From contig MTMF02000009.1 in the NCBI GenBank assembly GCA_002011125.2, positions 364,006 through 428,005 on the forward strand: DNA of 64,000 bases, read 5' to 3'. This stretch comes from Candidatus Hydrothermarchaeum profundi (GTDB taxonomy: Archaea > Hydrothermarchaeota > Hydrothermarchaeia > Hydrothermarchaeales > Hydrothermarchaeaceae). How positions within the stretch are numbered: position 1 is the stretch's first letter; every line of letters starts with the position of its first letter. The notes beneath the pieces are model-generated. The model had not been told where the DNA came from, did not search any database, and was given only the letters and a program-made list of their open reading frames with translations. Of this stretch, positions 37,033 through 44,181 are shown piece after piece. The translations under genes and the position numbers were made by a program.

Positions 37033-37386
37033 CTATTTTGTCCGAAAATTTCCATTTTCTAAATCTTTGAAAGATTTCTCAGCTATCGTAGTTACATTAG
37101 AAACCGCTTTAGCTATATACTCCTTAGATTTTTTCATATTAACGGTGTTGAACTCTTTAATTGCTTTATGGAGATTATGATATGCAGAGTCTGCTTCCTT
37201 CTCATGGGTTTTATCTCTCAACGCAACAAATAATGTTCTCATCTCCCCGTCCAATGAGTCAAACATTGCATGAATAATGTCTTCTTTCTTATCGTAGTTT
37301 TCATAAGCCTCTAGAAGATTATTCGCCATCAAAAGTAGCGTCTTCATTTTATCAGAATAATGATACGCCATAAGAGAACTTTTCAT
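37033..37386 (-). CDS. Unknown helical protein translationally coupled to NreA
   Basis: The 117-residue protein is predicted to be all-helical, with no cysteine or membrane segment. It resembles four-helix-bundle proteins in pattern but matches no family I can name. Its ATG overlaps the nreA stop by 4 bp (ATGA), so it is translated with NreA and may bind it or act in the same repair step. Confidence 0.6.
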   Translation of the reverse strand: MKSSLMAYHYSDKMKTLLLMANNLLEAYENYDKKEDIIHAMFDSLDGEMRTLFVALRDKTHEKEADSAYHNLHKAIKEFNTVNMKKSKEYIAKAVSNVTTIAEKSFKDLENGNFRTK

Positions 37387-38648
37387 ATAAACTCCTCCAA
37401 TCTTTTCTGCTTAAGCATTTTACTTTTTTTCAAATATTCCTTCATTGGAATCTTCAGCCTCTTAGAGATATCCCTCAAAGCTTCGCTTAAAGTATCAAAC
37501 TTTCTAGGCGGGTTTTTCATCGCTTGACGAACATTTTCCCTTACCTCCCAAACTCCTACGGGGATAATATAGCCTTCATAGATTTCTCTAAATACGATAA
37601 CTCCTGCCTGTCTTCTCATCCTATAAAGAGCCTCTTGCACAGCAAGTCTCGCTGCATAATAGCCTCCTCCTTCTGAATAAGCATACTCACTTCTACCCCA
37701 ATAGCCCTCATTTTCCTGATTAATCGCAGGTTCTTTATAGGACAAGGTCCACAGAGTATCTGGAGCCCACGCCTCAAACTGCTCATATTCCCATCTCCGA
37801 GGCATGAGCAACACTTCAAAATGATTATCCAGATATGTATTATGGTATACCAGAAATTCATTAACGGTTGGATAAGACCTTATATTTTCTAAAAGTCTTT
37901 TCCCAACTATATCATCAACCGCAGTTATGCTCCATCTTGTTGGAACCATCTTCTTACCCAAATCCAATCCTAAAACGCCGGAGGATAAAATCCTACTCAA
38001 ATAATATACATCATATCCATAGTGGTAGAGCTTAGAGATAGCCTCACCTGCCTTAAATTCGTCAGATACTACAGAATCCACCTTTTTGGGTATTGCGGGA
38101 TTTTCAGCTATATCAAAATTTCTCAGCATACCGCTAGGGCCTAACGGCTGAGATAACGGAGAGAAAGACAAGCTATATTTTGGTTTAGATTTAAATTCTA
38201 CCTCAGTATCCACAGGCTTAATAGAAAGCACTACTTCCTGGACCTTTTCTACTATCTTCGATCTCTCCTTCACGCCGCATCGGGTTTTCGATCTGACAAG
38301 CAGTGAACGCATTTTTATTATCTGGTTAAAATCTAGCCCATACCACTTGCTAGGATCATCTAAAAGGCTTGCATTCTCATACTCTATAGAAGTTAGCGGA
38401 CCAACAAAAACATTAGGATACCCCTTCCATCCTACAAAAATACTAGGAGAGGGTCCAAACATGTTTTCTTTGAGCATGCCCTCAATAGGGCTTTGAATAT
38501 AAATTTTAGCTAGTAAAGGACAAGAAGGTCTCCCACAAAGTAATCTTCCCCCTTTGCACTCCAAGCATAAAGTTCTGCTCATGGGTCTAAGCTTTCTAAT
38601 GGCCCTTACGATTTCACATTTTGGATCCTGCCAGTCTTCCATATTCAC
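37383..38648 (-). CDS. nreA: NreA-family DNA repair protein
   Basis: The 421-residue protein has the N-terminal zinc-finger-like motif LCLECKGGRLLCGRPSC. The Nre core includes PSIFVGWKGYPNVFVGPL and PLGPSGMLRNFDIAENPAIP. The C-terminus ends in QKRLEEFI, which fits a PCNA-interacting peptide (Qxx-L-xx-F-I). Nre proteins are archaeal and have been linked genetically to repair of DNA damage. PCNA is encoded at 62953. The next gene overlaps by 4 bp. Confidence 0.9.
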   Translation of the reverse strand: MNMEDWQDPKCEIVRAIRKLRPMSRTLCLECKGGRLLCGRPSCPLLAKIYIQSPIEGMLKENMFGPSPSIFVGWKGYPNVFVGPLTSIEYENASLLDDPSKWYGLDFNQIIKMRSLLVRSKTRCGVKERSKIVEKVQEVVLSIKPVDTEVEFKSKPKYSLSFSPLSQPLGPSGMLRNFDIAENPAIPKKVDSVVSDEFKAGEAISKLYHYGYDVYYLSRILSSGVLGLDLGKKMVPTRWSITAVDDIVGKRLLENIRSYPTVNEFLVYHNTYLDNHFEVLLMPRRWEYEQFEAWAPDTLWTLSYKEPAINQENEGYWGRSEYAYSEGGGYYAARLAVQEALYRMRRQAGVIVFREIYEGYIIPVGVWEVRENVRQAMKNPPRKFDTLSEALRDISKRLKIPMKEYLKKSKMLKQKRLEEFI

Positions 38649-38720
38649 TCTACTTTAAAATGAGAAAACTGCCATAAACAAGGTTAGCAGATCAAAGAAA
38701 ATAGATGCTAAAATTAAAAC

Positions 38721-38728
38721 TTTATATC
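38721..38728 (+). promoter_or_regulatory. TATA-like box for the primase-polymerase gene
   Basis: TTTATATC begins 28 bases before ATG 38749. This predicts a leaderless or nearly leaderless transcript, in line with the lack of a ribosome-binding site. Confidence 0.5.
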
Positions 38729-38748
38729 AAAAAAACAATTTTTTATAT

Positions 38749-39882
38749 ATGGCTACTCCGGAAGATCGTATCCTCCTACTACTTGCTATTAAAGAAAAAG
38801 GTAAAAGAATAAACTTTGAACACATCGCTGAAAAAGTTATCAGAGACGAGCAAGGGAAGATATCTGAAAAAGAAGTTAAAGAAACCCTAGAAGAACTCTT
38901 AAAAAAACAAATGGTCTCTGAGAAAAATAGAATGTATGCAATTACGGAGAAAGGCAGAGCTACAATTTTAGAAAAGCTTAAAGACATTGAAAATGAGCTA
39001 AATTTATCATATCGCCGGGTACTAGTGGCAAAAGACTACTATCCCTCAGTTGCAGAGGCTATGGTTCCATATTTAAAAGAGAGAGCTACGAGTACTGTAA
39101 AAGTTTTCAGCGACGAAAAAGACCCTTTTAATAATCTAAAACCCCTTTTCGTAAGATATTCCAGATATAAGCCTAAAAAAACCCCTATAATAATCGAAAC
39201 TGTAGACGAACTACTTAGATATGTAAACGCTCATGCGATTGATTTCATACCCTATGTGCATAAGCTTAACTCCTCTGAGCCAGATTGGCTTATACTAGAC
39301 CTAGATGCTGGTTTAGAATTCAGACGGCATGAGAAAGGTTTTGATCTGGTGAAATTAGCTGCAAAGAAAGTTATAGAAGTCCTAGAATACCACGAGATAA
39401 CACCGTGTATAAAATTTTCAGGATCTAGAGGTATACAGATATGGGCCGCACTAGATAACGGCAAATTACCGCCAGGAGACAAATTTGCTCAATATAGGAA
39501 TCTTGCTATAGTTATACAAAGAATGACCGAACAAGCAATACAGGACTCAGATGTCGCAGACGAATTTTATCAAATTACAAAGAAAAATAAGCCTATAACA
39601 ACCTCCACAGTCGCCAAGAAAGAAGAGAGGGCAGATCAAATCCTAATAGACTGGAGTAGCATGAAACCAAATGGGGATGTAAGAGCCCCTTTCAGCATTC
39701 ACTATAAAACAGGACTTGTATCCTGTCCAATCAGCAAACATCATCTCATAGACTTTAAAATAAGCGAGGCAGAACCTAAAACTGTGGCTGAAAATATAAA
39801 TAAACTAAGAAAAGACTTCGAGATTGTAAAATCAGATCCAAGTCTATTATGTAGAGCTAGCCGGTTTGCTACCTTGGAATAA
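38749..39882 (+). CDS. Archaeo-eukaryotic primase-superfamily polymerase with winged-helix N-terminus
   Basis: Residues 1-90 are a winged-helix-like domain (FEHIAEKVIRDEQGKISEKE, then a wing ending ITEKGRATIL). The rest is an AEP primase-polymerase core: LILDLDAG with metal-binding D184 and D186, the SGSRGIQIW nucleotide-binding segment (224-232), a third Asp in LIDWS (D301), and RAPFSIHYKTGL (312-323). This last block resembles PriS, while DLDAG resembles LigD polymerase domains. The cell also has PriL (63750), so PriS is expected elsewhere. A role in repair, lesion bypass or priming is likely. No Ku or ligase gene is adjacent. Confidence 0.82.
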   Translation: MATPEDRILLLLAIKEKGKRINFEHIAEKVIRDEQGKISEKEVKETLEELLKKQMVSEKNRMYAITEKGRATILEKLKDIENELNLSYRRVLVAKDYYPSVAEAMVPYLKERATSTVKVFSDEKDPFNNLKPLFVRYSRYKPKKTPIIIETVDELLRYVNAHAIDFIPYVHKLNSSEPDWLILDLDAGLEFRRHEKGFDLVKLAAKKVIEVLEYHEITPCIKFSGSRGIQIWAALDNGKLPPGDKFAQYRNLAIVIQRMTEQAIQDSDVADEFYQITKKNKPITTSTVAKKEERADQILIDWSSMKPNGDVRAPFSIHYKTGLVSCPISKHHLIDFKISEAEPKTVAENINKLRKDFEIVKSDPSLLCRASRFATLE

Positions 39883-39911: not shown

Positions 39912-41102
39912 TTATTCGTATCTCAAAGCCTCAACCGGATCTAGCTTGGCCGCTTTCCATGCAGGGTATGCTCCAGAGGCACTTCCTACAATAATAGAAA
40001 AAATAAGAGCTCCTATAAGCACTGTAACAGAAACATATGTTTCAAATAATGTACCAATGTAAAACTGACCGATTTCCTCTATCATCTTCGAAGTAACGAG
40101 ACCAAAAATTATCCCAACAGCCCCTCCAACAAGCCCTACAAGAGAAGATTCCGCAAGAAATACGCCTAGAATGCGGTAGTTAGTCGCACCCGTTGCCTTC
40201 ATTATACCTATCTCTCGAGTCCTCTCAATTACGCTCATTAACATAGTATTCATTATTATTACCCCCCCTACCAAAAGAGAAACCGAGGCAATTCCTCCGA
40301 GAACGAAAGTTAATATATCTAAAACCTGATTTATTTGCCCAGCTTGGTCTTCTGTAGTTAAGACCTCAAAATCTTTTCCTCCTCTAAGTTTTTTAAGGCG
40401 CTCTTCAATTTTTTTCGAAACTTCCCCTACTACGCCTTTACTGTCTGCTTGAACCATTATAAAATTAATATCATCCCCAACGTCAAAAAGTGACTGCGCA
40501 GCCTTTATCGACATATAAATCTGAGAATCATCTGGCTTTGACCCTATCTCCTCGATGATTCCAGTTACTCTAAACTTTTTACCGCTTATCTCTAGGTAAT
40601 CTCCTACCCTAATTTCTTTTTCAAACATCCCTTTTGAAACATAATAACCTATAAACACCGCCTCTGTCTCGGTTTCATCAATATATCGGCCTTCTTTCAA
40701 TGTAAGAAACTCACGATAAAGTTCTATTCCTTCTTCTGTCCCCCCTATTATGTTCGCAGTTACCTCTTCAGTACCCACTTTAACCTTTGCTGATGCGAAA
40801 TACATAGGAGCTACTTTTTTAACCCCTGGAATAGTATTTATCTCTCTCAGCTCAGCATTGCCGAAGGGTACGAATTCTTTTGGAGGCCCAAAGCCTCCTC
40901 CAAAAAATCCCGCTGGTGAAACATATATCTTATCGGCTCCAACCTTGTCAAGCTGTTCATTTACTGTCCTCCTCATACCCTCACCAATAGAAATCATAGC
41001 CACAATTACCGCAATACCTATAACAATGCCTGATAGAGTAAGAAAAGTTCTAGACTTCCTTTGAACCATATTCCTAAACGAATACTTTATGTACTCGATC
41101 AT
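39912..41102 (-). CDS. MacB-type ABC transporter permease
   Basis: The 396-residue protein has one N-terminal helix, a large external MacB-like domain (residues 40-270) and three C-terminal helices with EIGIMKATGATNYRILGVFL. It shares design and about the same length with the permease encoded just upstream, so the pair is probably a heterodimer. Its start overlaps that gene by 4 bp. It is the last gene of a five-gene PadR operon. Confidence 0.87.
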   Translation of the reverse strand: MIEYIKYSFRNMVQRKSRTFLTLSGIVIGIAVIVAMISIGEGMRRTVNEQLDKVGADKIYVSPAGFFGGGFGPPKEFVPFGNAELREINTIPGVKKVAPMYFASAKVKVGTEEVTANIIGGTEEGIELYREFLTLKEGRYIDETETEAVFIGYYVSKGMFEKEIRVGDYLEISGKKFRVTGIIEEIGSKPDDSQIYMSIKAAQSLFDVGDDINFIMVQADSKGVVGEVSKKIEERLKKLRGGKDFEVLTTEDQAGQINQVLDILTFVLGGIASVSLLVGGVIIMNTMLMSVIERTREIGIMKATGATNYRILGVFLAESSLVGLVGGAVGIIFGLVTSKMIEEIGQFYIGTLFETYVSVTVLIGALIFSIIVGSASGAYPAWKAAKLDPVEALRYE

Positions 41103-42280
41103 GCTCTGAGAGCCTCCACTGGATCCAATTTTACGGCCTTATACGCGGGATATAAACCAGAGATAACGCCAGCTAATATAGCAAAGCTAATAGCATAGAA
41201 TGCCAAGCTAGGGGTTACCGCGGTAGTCAAAACACCTGGGCCCAAATAGTTTTCAGCTAGCTCATTTATAATTGTAGAGATAATGTAACCTATCAAAACT
41301 CCTATCATACCTCCAAAAAATCCAAAAACCCCTGATTCGAAGAGAAATATTCTCATTACTTGAGAATTAGTAGCCCCAGTTGCTTTCATTATACCTATTT
41401 CCTGGGTCCTTTCAACTACGTTCATAATCATTGTATTGGCTATGCCTATACCCCCAACAATCAAAGATACTCCAGCTATACCTCCAAATACGACCTGGAT
41501 TACTTTTAGCGAAGACGATATGGCATTAATCAGTTGCTGGGAGGTAAATACATCGAACTCCACCCCTTCATGGCGTCTTTCAAGACTGTCTTCTATTTTT
41601 TGACGGACTTCGTCCACATCATAACCTGGTTTTACCCTTACGACTATTGCTGTTACACTTTTTTCTCTCCCCATGAGTTCCCTTAACTTATCTATGTTAA
41701 CCATTACAGCTTCATCATGTTCTGGATCTCCAGTTTCTTTAAAAATACCTACAACACGGAATTTTTCTCCTTGGATTTTTATGCTGTTTCCGAGCTCTAC
41801 TTTACTTTTAAAAAAATCGTCATGAACTCTATAACCCAAGACAACTACATTTCGGTCTCCTGGCTCGAGCCATCTACCTTTAAGGAGGCGGTATCCCCCG
41901 ACATCAGAAAAAGTTCGTTCTGCTTTACCGGGATCTAAACCCCATACAGTTATGACCTTTTCTTCACCCTTAAATTCGCCTCCTGCAGCAACACTATACA
42001 TAGGGGAAACAAACTCCACACCCACTATATCCTCAATATTCGAAACATCGCCATCAGTTAAGCCTTTTCCTCTTACCCCATATTCCATCGTAGAAGTAAC
42101 GAGTATTTTATTGGTGCCAAACGCCTCAAACTGTTCCCTTACAGCCTTTGTCATGCCTTCCCCAATAGACACCATCGAAACTACAGCTGTTATACCGATA
42201 ATTACACCAAGTGTTGTAAGAATAGCCCTAGCTTTTCTATAAGATAAATTTTTTAAGGAAAGCTCTATATATTGCAACAT
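41099..42280 (-). CDS. MacB-type ABC transporter permease
   Basis: This 393-residue permease has the FtsX/MacB layout: LTTLGVIIGITAVVSMVSIG at the first helix, an external domain, then three helices with EIGIMKATGATNSQVMRIFL. MacB-like systems couple ATP use to mechanical work on extracytoplasmic partners rather than to classic transport. The adjacent CARDB-like surface protein is a natural partner. The ATPase gene ends 6 bases upstream. Confidence 0.87.
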   Translation of the reverse strand: MLQYIELSLKNLSYRKARAILTTLGVIIGITAVVSMVSIGEGMTKAVREQFEAFGTNKILVTSTMEYGVRGKGLTDGDVSNIEDIVGVEFVSPMYSVAAGGEFKGEEKVITVWGLDPGKAERTFSDVGGYRLLKGRWLEPGDRNVVVLGYRVHDDFFKSKVELGNSIKIQGEKFRVVGIFKETGDPEHDEAVMVNIDKLRELMGREKSVTAIVVRVKPGYDVDEVRQKIEDSLERRHEGVEFDVFTSQQLINAISSSLKVIQVVFGGIAGVSLIVGGIGIANTMIMNVVERTQEIGIMKATGATNSQVMRIFLFESGVFGFFGGMIGVLIGYIISTIINELAENYLGPGVLTTAVTPSLAFYAISFAILAGVISGLYPAYKAVKLDPVEALRA

Positions 42281-42286
42281 CTCACT

Positions 42287-42964
42287 TCAGCCTACGATCC
42301 TCCCATCCCTGATTTTTATTATAGTGTTTGCTCGCTTACCAAATTCCCTCTCATGCGTTACCAACACGATCGTCTTACCTCTCTCATTGAGTTCTTCTAA
42401 AATTCTCATAATACCTTCACCAGACTTAGTATCCAGATTACCAGTTGGCTCGTCAGCCAAAATTATTTCCGGATCATTCCCAAGAGCTCTAGCGATGCAA
42501 ACCCTCTGCCTTTCTCCACCTGAAAGTTCTGTTGGCCGATGCTTCATTCGGTCGCCTAAACCCACGAGTTTTAGAAGTTCCGCAGCTCTTTTCACTCTTT
42601 GGACTTTAGGCACTCCTGCAAACCACATGGGGAGCTCTACGTTTTCGATAGCTGTAAGACGAGGTATTAAATTGAATTGTTGAAATACGAAGCCTATTTT
42701 CTCTCTGCGAATTCTCGCTAGAGAATTATCTGACAGTTTCGAAATATCTCTTCCCTCAATGAAAACCCTTCCTTTCGTTGGCCTATCCAAAGCTCCAATC
42801 AAATTCATCAAAGTGCTTTTCCCGCTCCCAGAGGGCCCCATAATCGAAACATAATCACCCTTTTCAATAGAAAGGTTTATACCTCGTAAAGCCGGCACTT
42901 TGACACGATCCATGAGATAAGTCTTTTCAACTCCTTCGAGTCTCACTATATCCAAACCTTTCAC
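42287..42964 (-). CDS. LolD/MacB-type ABC ATPase
   Basis: The 225-residue ATPase has Walker A GPSGSGKSTLMNLIG, Q-loop FVFQQFNLIPRL, signature LSGGERQRVCIARAL and Walker B ILADEPTGNLD. This is the LolD/FtsE/MacB subgroup that pairs with FtsX-like permeases, two of which follow. Its start overlaps the surface-protein gene by 4 bp. Confidence 0.93.
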   Translation of the reverse strand: MKGLDIVRLEGVEKTYLMDRVKVPALRGINLSIEKGDYVSIMGPSGSGKSTLMNLIGALDRPTKGRVFIEGRDISKLSDNSLARIRREKIGFVFQQFNLIPRLTAIENVELPMWFAGVPKVQRVKRAAELLKLVGLGDRMKHRPTELSGGERQRVCIARALGNDPEIILADEPTGNLDTKSGEGIMRILEELNERGKTIVLVTHEREFGKRANTIIKIRDGRIVG

Positions 42965-44181
42965 CCTTCAATAACTTGCGATGCTGCCTTCTTATATCTC
43001 CAGACTACAACTAAAATAAGCGCAAGAATTATCAGAGGCACAGCTATGTAGTAAACTTTTTTCCGTGGAGGCTCGTCCACATAAATGCTAAATGTCTTCG
43101 TATCGTAGAATTCGTCTCCTTTTTCATCGGTATAAACAATCTTCATTTTAAAAGTGTGGTCTCCGGGCGCTACTGATTTAGTAGCTCTAAGGTCAAATAT
43201 ACCTGAAGACACATCGTCCACTTCAATCTTGCCTATAAAGGACGAAAATTCTCCGACAAACCCTTCAGTATTCGAAATCGTCGCCATAACTGATTTAGCA
43301 TCTTGGGTGCCAATATTTTCCAATTGCACAGAGAGAGTAAAATCAGTTCCAGGATAAATCTTAGATGGAGAGGTACTTATCCCCGCTATCTCTAAATCAA
43401 CATCACCATACGAGCTAACAAAAATCTGAAAGGGTCTTTCAACCTTTTTTAGAACTCCTTCTTCATTATAATAAATCAATATAAGAGTGAAATCATAAGC
43501 CCTACTTTCCGCTTTCTTTGATGCTTTGAGGTCAAAAGAGAGAGAAACTTTTTTGTCTTTCTCCAATGTGCCTATATACCCCGATCCTTCCCCAGAAAAC
43601 TCCTCAGGCATAACAAGTCTGGCTTCAACAGCTTTTGCATCCTCATCTCCTATATTCTCAACACCTAAAACTAGAGAGAACTCCTGATCAGGATATACTC
43701 GTTCCGGGGAAGTATTGACCCCTGCTATAACCAGATTTGGCTCCCCTTCTACTATAACACCTACGTAGATTATTTGACTCTTTTCTTCCTTCCTAGCGTC
43801 TTCCCAATTTAATACTATCGGAATTTGATATGCCCCTATTGCAGCATTATCTTTTACCTTGACTTGATATTGTAGTATTAACTCATCACTTTGCCTTACA
43901 ACTCCGAAATACTCCATTGATTCTACAGCGCCAGCTGCTTTCCCTAAAAACTTCTTAGGCGACGATAGCGCTGTGAACGGAGATGTTCCGTCAGGGTCAA
44001 ATGAAGCCCGAAGATATGCGGCATAATCTGTTCCCAGATTCTTTATCGTTATATTCACCGTCACAATTTCTCCAGGATAAACCTTATCCGGAGAAACGTT
44101 CATAACATAAAAGTCAGCAGTCGAGGCAGATACTATGGGAACCATAAGAAGTACAATGAAAAACCATTCTTTCATTTCCAT
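42961..44181 (-). CDS. Secreted CARDB/NEW3-like (COG1361-type) surface protein
   Basis: The 406-residue protein has a signal peptide (WFFIVLLMVPIVSAS) and three repeated beta-sandwich domains. Each starts with a phrase like VSPDKVYPGEIVTV, TSPERVYPDQEFSL or TSPSKIYPGTDFTL. A C-terminal helix (YIAVPLIILALILVVVW) with a basic tail follows, so it is anchored outside the membrane. It overlaps both padR and the ATPase gene. Co-expression suggests it is the extracytoplasmic partner of the MacB-like ABC complex. Confidence 0.85.
   Translation of the reverse strand: MEMKEWFFIVLLMVPIVSASTADFYVMNVSPDKVYPGEIVTVNITIKNLGTDYAAYLRASFDPDGTSPFTALSSPKKFLGKAAGAVESMEYFGVVRQSDELILQYQVKVKDNAAIGAYQIPIVLNWEDARKEEKSQIIYVGVIVEGEPNLVIAGVNTSPERVYPDQEFSLVLGVENIGDEDAKAVEARLVMPEEFSGEGSGYIGTLEKDKKVSLSFDLKASKKAESRAYDFTLILIYYNEEGVLKKVERPFQIFVSSYGDVDLEIAGISTSPSKIYPGTDFTLSVQLENIGTQDAKSVMATISNTEGFVGEFSSFIGKIEVDDVSSGIFDLRATKSVAPGDHTFKMKIVYTDEKGDEFYDTKTFSIYVDEPPRKKVYYIAVPLIILALILVVVWRYKKAASQVIEG

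Follow-up and report, generated by a model that had tools for sequence, protein, structure and literature searches.

A winged-helix family of archaeal primase-polymerases, related to LigD-Pol and PriS, with a plausible role in DNA repair

RESULTS

A stand-alone primase-polymerase gene with an N-terminal winged helix

The window, by which we mean the whole stretch of 64 kb that was analysed, carries a gene for a winged-helix primase-polymerase at 38749..39882 on the plus strand (ATG start, 377 amino acids, stop included). The gene is monocistronic, a plus-strand gene flanked by two minus-strand genes, just as the first-pass annotation had described it as standing alone. A 100-bp intergenic region (38649..38748) is common to this gene and to the divergent gene of an NreA-type Nre protein (37383..38648, minus strand; PF04894, E 5.7e-95; PF04895, E 3.7e-39), the C-terminal QKRLEEFI of which resembles a PIP box. 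Within this region, a TATA-like TTTATAT at 38721..38727 on the plus strand, about 25 nt before the ATG, is a putative leaderless promoter by its position only; the spacing fits the leaderless promoter that had been claimed, but the 7-mer has 22 copies on the plus strand of the 64-kb window and does not amount to proof. The genes downstream, in one run on the minus strand (window 39912-44181), encode two permeases of ABC exporters with the corresponding ATPase, and a CARDB-domain protein.

The fusion of an N-terminal winged helix to an AEP core, also claimed earlier, holds. The winged helix spans about residues 1 to 83 (38749..38997, plus strand) and is present in the non-truncated members of the family. 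Pfam winged-helix models match residues 8 to 84 weakly (PF14277, 1.5e-4; PF14947, 2.5e-4), and an AlphaFold2 model computed from an 18-row alignment (mean pLDDT 92, pTM 0.90) joins the domain to the AEP core, with secondary structure elements H4-13, H23-33, H40-52, E56-59, E62-65 and H67-83. The AEP, LigD_Prim-Pol-like catalytic core covers residues 96 to 353 (39034..39807, plus strand) and is matched by PF21686 (LigD_Prim-Pol; E 1e-23), passing the gathering score of 27.4 with 84.7 bits. The NCBIfam equivalog TIGR02778 (ligD_pol; 63.2 bits, cut-off 214.7) and the PriS family PF01896 (E 0.0087; 16.9 bits, gathering score 26.8) both fail. Searches of the protein found neither a zinc finger nor a PriL-like or PriCT domain.

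A Foldseek search with the model against the PDB gave 56 matches at E <= 1e-3, and the best 50 of the 56 are all AEPs. Top among the matches listed is Mycobacterium smegmatis Prim-PolC (6sa0, 5op0; E 2e-12, TM to target 0.66), followed by LigD polymerase domains (PolDom; TM to target up to 0.71), including that of archaeal Methanocella, and then by CRISPR-associated Prim-Pol and human PriS.

Conserved motifs and a distinct nucleotide pocket

The features of the AEP superfamily found in the protein are motifs I (hhhDhD) and III (hD) and the AEP fold. Motif I, D-L-D-A-G at residues 184 to 188 (39298..39312, plus strand), holds the metal-binding DxD in invariant alignment columns, and motif III is represented by the invariant Asp301 of ILID (39649..39651, plus strand); D184, D186 and D301 are unchanged in all 18 aligned members. 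Motif II, S-G-S-R-G-I-Q at residues 224 to 230 (39418..39438, plus strand), has Gln230 in place of the usual AEP His, a change that the first-pass annotation had not remarked on. Motif IV, R-A-P-F-S-I-H at residues 312 to 318 (39682..39702, plus strand), would supply a PriS-like nucleotide-pocket Arg and His, a role assigned by homology: R312 and H318 are invariant and correspond to the PriS-type motif IV Arg/Lys and His, and the homologous pocket residues of human PriS are Lys318 and His324 (PMC5862659). This motif opens the stretch RAPFSIHYKTGL at residues 312 to 323, which is invariant or near-invariant among relatives.

All 50 of the 50 intact members have DxDAG in motif I, SG[SG]RGxQ in motif II and R-x-P-x-S-x-H in motif IV. 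That the DxD, the S-G-[SG]-R-G-x-Q, the RxPxSxH and the motif III Asp are invariant among intact members from several phyla implies that selection maintains a functional site for metal and nucleotide. At the three pocket positions every aligned intact member of the family reads Q|R|H, LigD-Pol reads H|I/A/V|R, and most PriS read H|R|H. The mix of LigD-type (DLDAG) and PriS-type features reported by the first-pass annotation is real, since the family profile picks up LigD-Pol structures through the central part of the core and, through a C-terminal stretch like KSPFSVHPKTG, structures of eukaryotic PriS.

The motif II Gln need not mean an inactive enzyme, because Gln together with a motif IV Arg occurs in active AEPs. 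PolpTN2, compared here through its published description, has Gln at motif II, is dead as an R231A mutant, and primes with dNTPs (PMC5862659).

A group separate from LigD-Pol and PriS in the tree

Records of Methanomethylicota, Nitrososphaeria, Njordarchaeota/Asgard and Hadarchaeum contain homologues with 37 to 52% identity, of which nearly all are full length and have the winged helix. In a tree of 60 rows, LigD-Pol forms one group (100/100) and PriS another (100/99), and a third group (96/97) unites the winged-helix family, a relative named L060 and a degenerate crenarchaeal group. The AU test did not reject a placement of the window row nearest to LigD (p 0.13) and was borderline for a grouping of the family with PriS (p 0.055); these tests are weak, and the separation of the family from LigD-Pol and PriS is supported by branch support and the pocket signature. 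In the tree the window protein does not group with the main PriS; the proteins that always have the winged helix make up a family by themselves. Multi-phylum homologues, the tree and the Q|R|H pocket together support, from sequence, a distinct winged-helix AEP family, which bears out the earlier suggestion of a separate group of archaeal primase-polymerases. The idea that the window protein is itself the main PriS was rejected; the genome has a separate PriS gene (G000:C9:430200), and the PriS clade excludes the window protein.

How does this family compare with known AEPs? It has the AEP fold, the PF21686 match and the core layout in common with LigD-Pol, the NHEJ Prim-PolD of M. tuberculosis, P. 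aeruginosa and Methanocella, but a winged helix replaces the docking segment at the N-terminus of LigD, motif II has Gln where LigD has His, motif IV has Arg and His where LigD has I/A/V and Arg, linkage to Ku or ligase is absent, and the place in the tree is separate. The N-terminal TK before YY and the RxPxG after it that mark LigD were not seen in the family, but one search pattern behind this result was too strict to pick up most bacterial LigD. Mycobacterial Prim-PolC is alike in giving the best Foldseek matches, in being a stand-alone AEP and in its proposed Ku-independent short-gap repair, whereas the family is archaeal, with an N-terminal winged helix, a Q|R|H pocket, no adjoining ligase and no recognisable 5'-phosphate pocket. 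With archaeal and eukaryotic PriS it has in common the motif IV R/K-x-P-x-S-x-H stretch and the SG-x-RG frame of motif II, but it lacks the motif II His and lies outside the PriS clade in a genome with its own PriS. The PrimPol-PV1 supergroup (PolpTN2-like, PrimQH) likewise combines a motif II Gln with a motif IV Arg (here Q230 and R312); unlike it, the family is chromosomal and not in mobile elements, is without a PriCT, PriL or helicase part, and has His as third pocket residue, where Gln usually pairs with Asn.

Several relatives depart from the family pattern. The crenarchaeal-type relatives L061-L072 (e.g., L062; L197:5043-5954) are without the winged helix, have DxK for the motif I DxD and DGMNGxK for motif II, and have lost the motif III Asp, while the RxPxSxH stretch is kept. 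Four Asgard proteins, L116-L119 (G543-G546), have the winged helix and keep motif III, but their motif I reads E/D-x-S/G and their motif IV has Asn or Ser for His; their genes adjoin a sugar-kinase-like gene. L171/L060 (G431:C108:21-818), cut by the contig end, has a motif II His and matches both LigD_Prim-Pol (1.3e-19) and DNA_primase_S (1.5e-11).

Distribution among archaea

Genome surveys with an 18-row family profile found the family in 25 of 28 Hadarchaeota genomes, in 16 of the 398 genomes of the Thermoproteota sample (together with one His-type relative), and in the 228 Asgard genomes as 7 intact and 4 degenerate members. The window's own phylum has it in 1 of 23 genomes, besides a contig-edge N-terminal fragment in G004. 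In another archaeal phylum it was found in none of 115 genomes, where two weak matches lay in longer reading frames only. Retention in 25 of 28 genomes indicates that the family is core in Hadarchaeota. No relatives were found among phages and IMG/VR, and the plasmid search matched bacterial LigD-type proteins at 22 to 26% identity; a mobile-element origin was rejected on these grounds. The open-access literature yielded no published name or description of a winged-helix AEP family, although an earlier mention is possible, and LigD- or NHEJ-type enzymes are not mentioned in the main text of a 2025 study of Asgard primases.

Ku and NHEJ genes in carrier genomes

That neither Ku nor ligase stands beside the gene, as noted earlier, is true of the locus but not of the genome, which has a full NHEJ operon 320 kb away (LigD-Pol, Ku and ligase-phosphoesterase; G000:C9 about 719.5-722.6 kb, L194:6502-9551). 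Its LigD-Pol has 286 amino acids (PF21686, E 5.6e-84), and the ligase has a C-terminal 3'-phosphoesterase domain. The presence of a separate LigD-Pol in the Ku operon argues that the winged-helix protein does something else. Of about 62 distinct carrier genomes, 9 have Ku. Because many of these genomes are incomplete MAGs, a missing Ku is uncertain in any single one, but the picture across all of about 62 is clear. NHEJ as the main role was rejected on the scarcity of Ku among carriers and on the canonical LigD-Pol already present in the Ku operon. Two Hadarchaeal genomes, G035 (L035) and G057 (L034), have a Ku-ligase pair and no second LigD-Pol-like gene; there the winged-helix enzyme may be the only candidate NHEJ polymerase, and the family could serve NHEJ.

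Gene neighbourhoods

The gene divergently upstream of the family member is a repair gene in three lineages. In the window it is Nre; of 19 distinct Hadarchaeal loci, 17 have endonuclease V in this place; and 4 Thermoproteota loci have an HhH-GPD glycosylase that resembles endonuclease III. The Nre protein of Haloferax acts with UvrABC and PCNA (PMC4929162). In most other lineages the neighbours are MFS, HAD, AmmeMemoRadiSam or xylulokinase genes, with no repair neighbour, and no replication-fork gene is among the identified neighbours. Because the genes next to the family are unrelated in these other lineages, the context is suggestive only. A nuclease of Mrr-like type with a winged helix is encoded close to the primase-polymerase in Nitrososphaeria, and also close to the degenerate relatives in crenarchaeal genomes (L020:9562-10146, L029:1466-2101, L197:6791-7477); as a conserved partner it was rejected, since the window's genome lacks an Mrr-like gene and the nuclease is therefore not required.

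DISCUSSION

A repair role with several alternatives

The winged-helix AEP family is real and, as far as the open-access literature goes, undescribed; it is related to LigD-Pol and PriS and, to judge by branch support and the pocket signature, a member of neither. The enzymes of excision-repair synthesis in archaea have been poorly assigned so far, and it is chiefly mycobacteria that are known to have stand-alone AEPs with roles in repair. With its distinct pocket and its presence in nearly all Hadarchaeota, this widespread archaeal family makes primase-type short-gap repair in archaea directly testable, and it offers a test of AEP function with Gln for the motif II His.

Judged by gene context, a repair role for the family is plausible. 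The specific form that we favour, at about even odds, is Ku-independent filling of short gaps in excision repair, which would make the family an archaeal counterpart of mycobacterial Prim-PolC. The winged helix would help to position the enzyme on the duplex DNA of an intermediate in lesion processing; a metal site of D184, D186 and D301 and a triphosphate pocket of Q230, R312 and H318 would then let the AEP core add one or a few nucleotides at the 3' end, so that a short gap left by excision-repair nucleases is filled without Ku and the nick is sealed by a ligase encoded elsewhere. The closest solved folds, Prim-PolC and LigD PolDom, and the divergent repair neighbours in three lineages point to this model. 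Prim-PolC works in base excision repair, where it fills short gaps, using ribonucleotides, and where its complex interacts with enzymes of the pathway (PMC5663958, PMC7442782). As the LigD N-terminal stretch was not seen, gap recognition would have to differ, and the winged helix may substitute for the LigD segments in DNA docking. Lesion bypass as a family role has no specific support.

Among other activities, a PrimPol-like repriming primase, which would lay down primers ahead of a lesion or a stalled fork and not fill gaps, would suit a motif IV resembling that of PriS, eukaryotic PriS included; AEPs commonly prime, and the Gln-type PolpTN2 does so with dNTPs (PMC5862659). We consider it unlikely, given that the protein has no recognised zinc-finger, PriL-like or PriCT domain, that the solved folds nearest to it belong to enzymes of gap filling and NHEJ, and that replication-fork genes are missing from the identified neighbours. 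A polymerase for end joining, either together with Ku or through microhomology without it, draws on PF21686 as the best family match and on the Ku-ligase pairs of G035 and G057, but the rarity of Ku among carriers, the canonical LigD-Pol in the window's genome and the absence of the LigD signature H|I/A/V|R leave it a somewhat smaller chance still.

The motif II Gln and the two degenerate lineages leave room for a non-catalytic role, in which a catalytically dead or regulatory DNA-binding protein would use the AEP fold as a scaffold; motif I is broken in four Asgard genomes, and the crenarchaeal relatives have lost residues of motifs I, II and III. Against this, the signatures of motifs I, II and IV are kept in every intact member, the motif III Asp is invariant, and active AEPs with Gln at motif II are known, which makes such a scaffold improbable for the family. 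The Gln/Arg signature is also like that of PrimPol-PV1 enzymes of mobile elements, yet we give a replication primase of a mobile element hardly any credence in view of the phage, IMG/VR and plasmid searches, the near-constant presence in Hadarchaeota and the ordinary chromosomal neighbours.

Extending the gap-filling reading, we put forward tentatively, as a possibility that falls short of probable, that this is a new, conserved family of repair polymerases in archaea, core to Hadarchaeota, which combines a nucleotide pocket of its own, made of a Gln-type motif II and a PriS-like motif IV, with a winged helix and carries out Ku-free excision-repair synthesis; standing between LigD-Pol and PriS by sequence, it may preserve an intermediate stage in the evolutionary history of both.

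A further small AEP group (L073, L089 and L095, in G107 and G063) has DxD, SGRRGFH and YSLHE motifs and lies outside the PriS and LigD clades; G063 has two copies of it.
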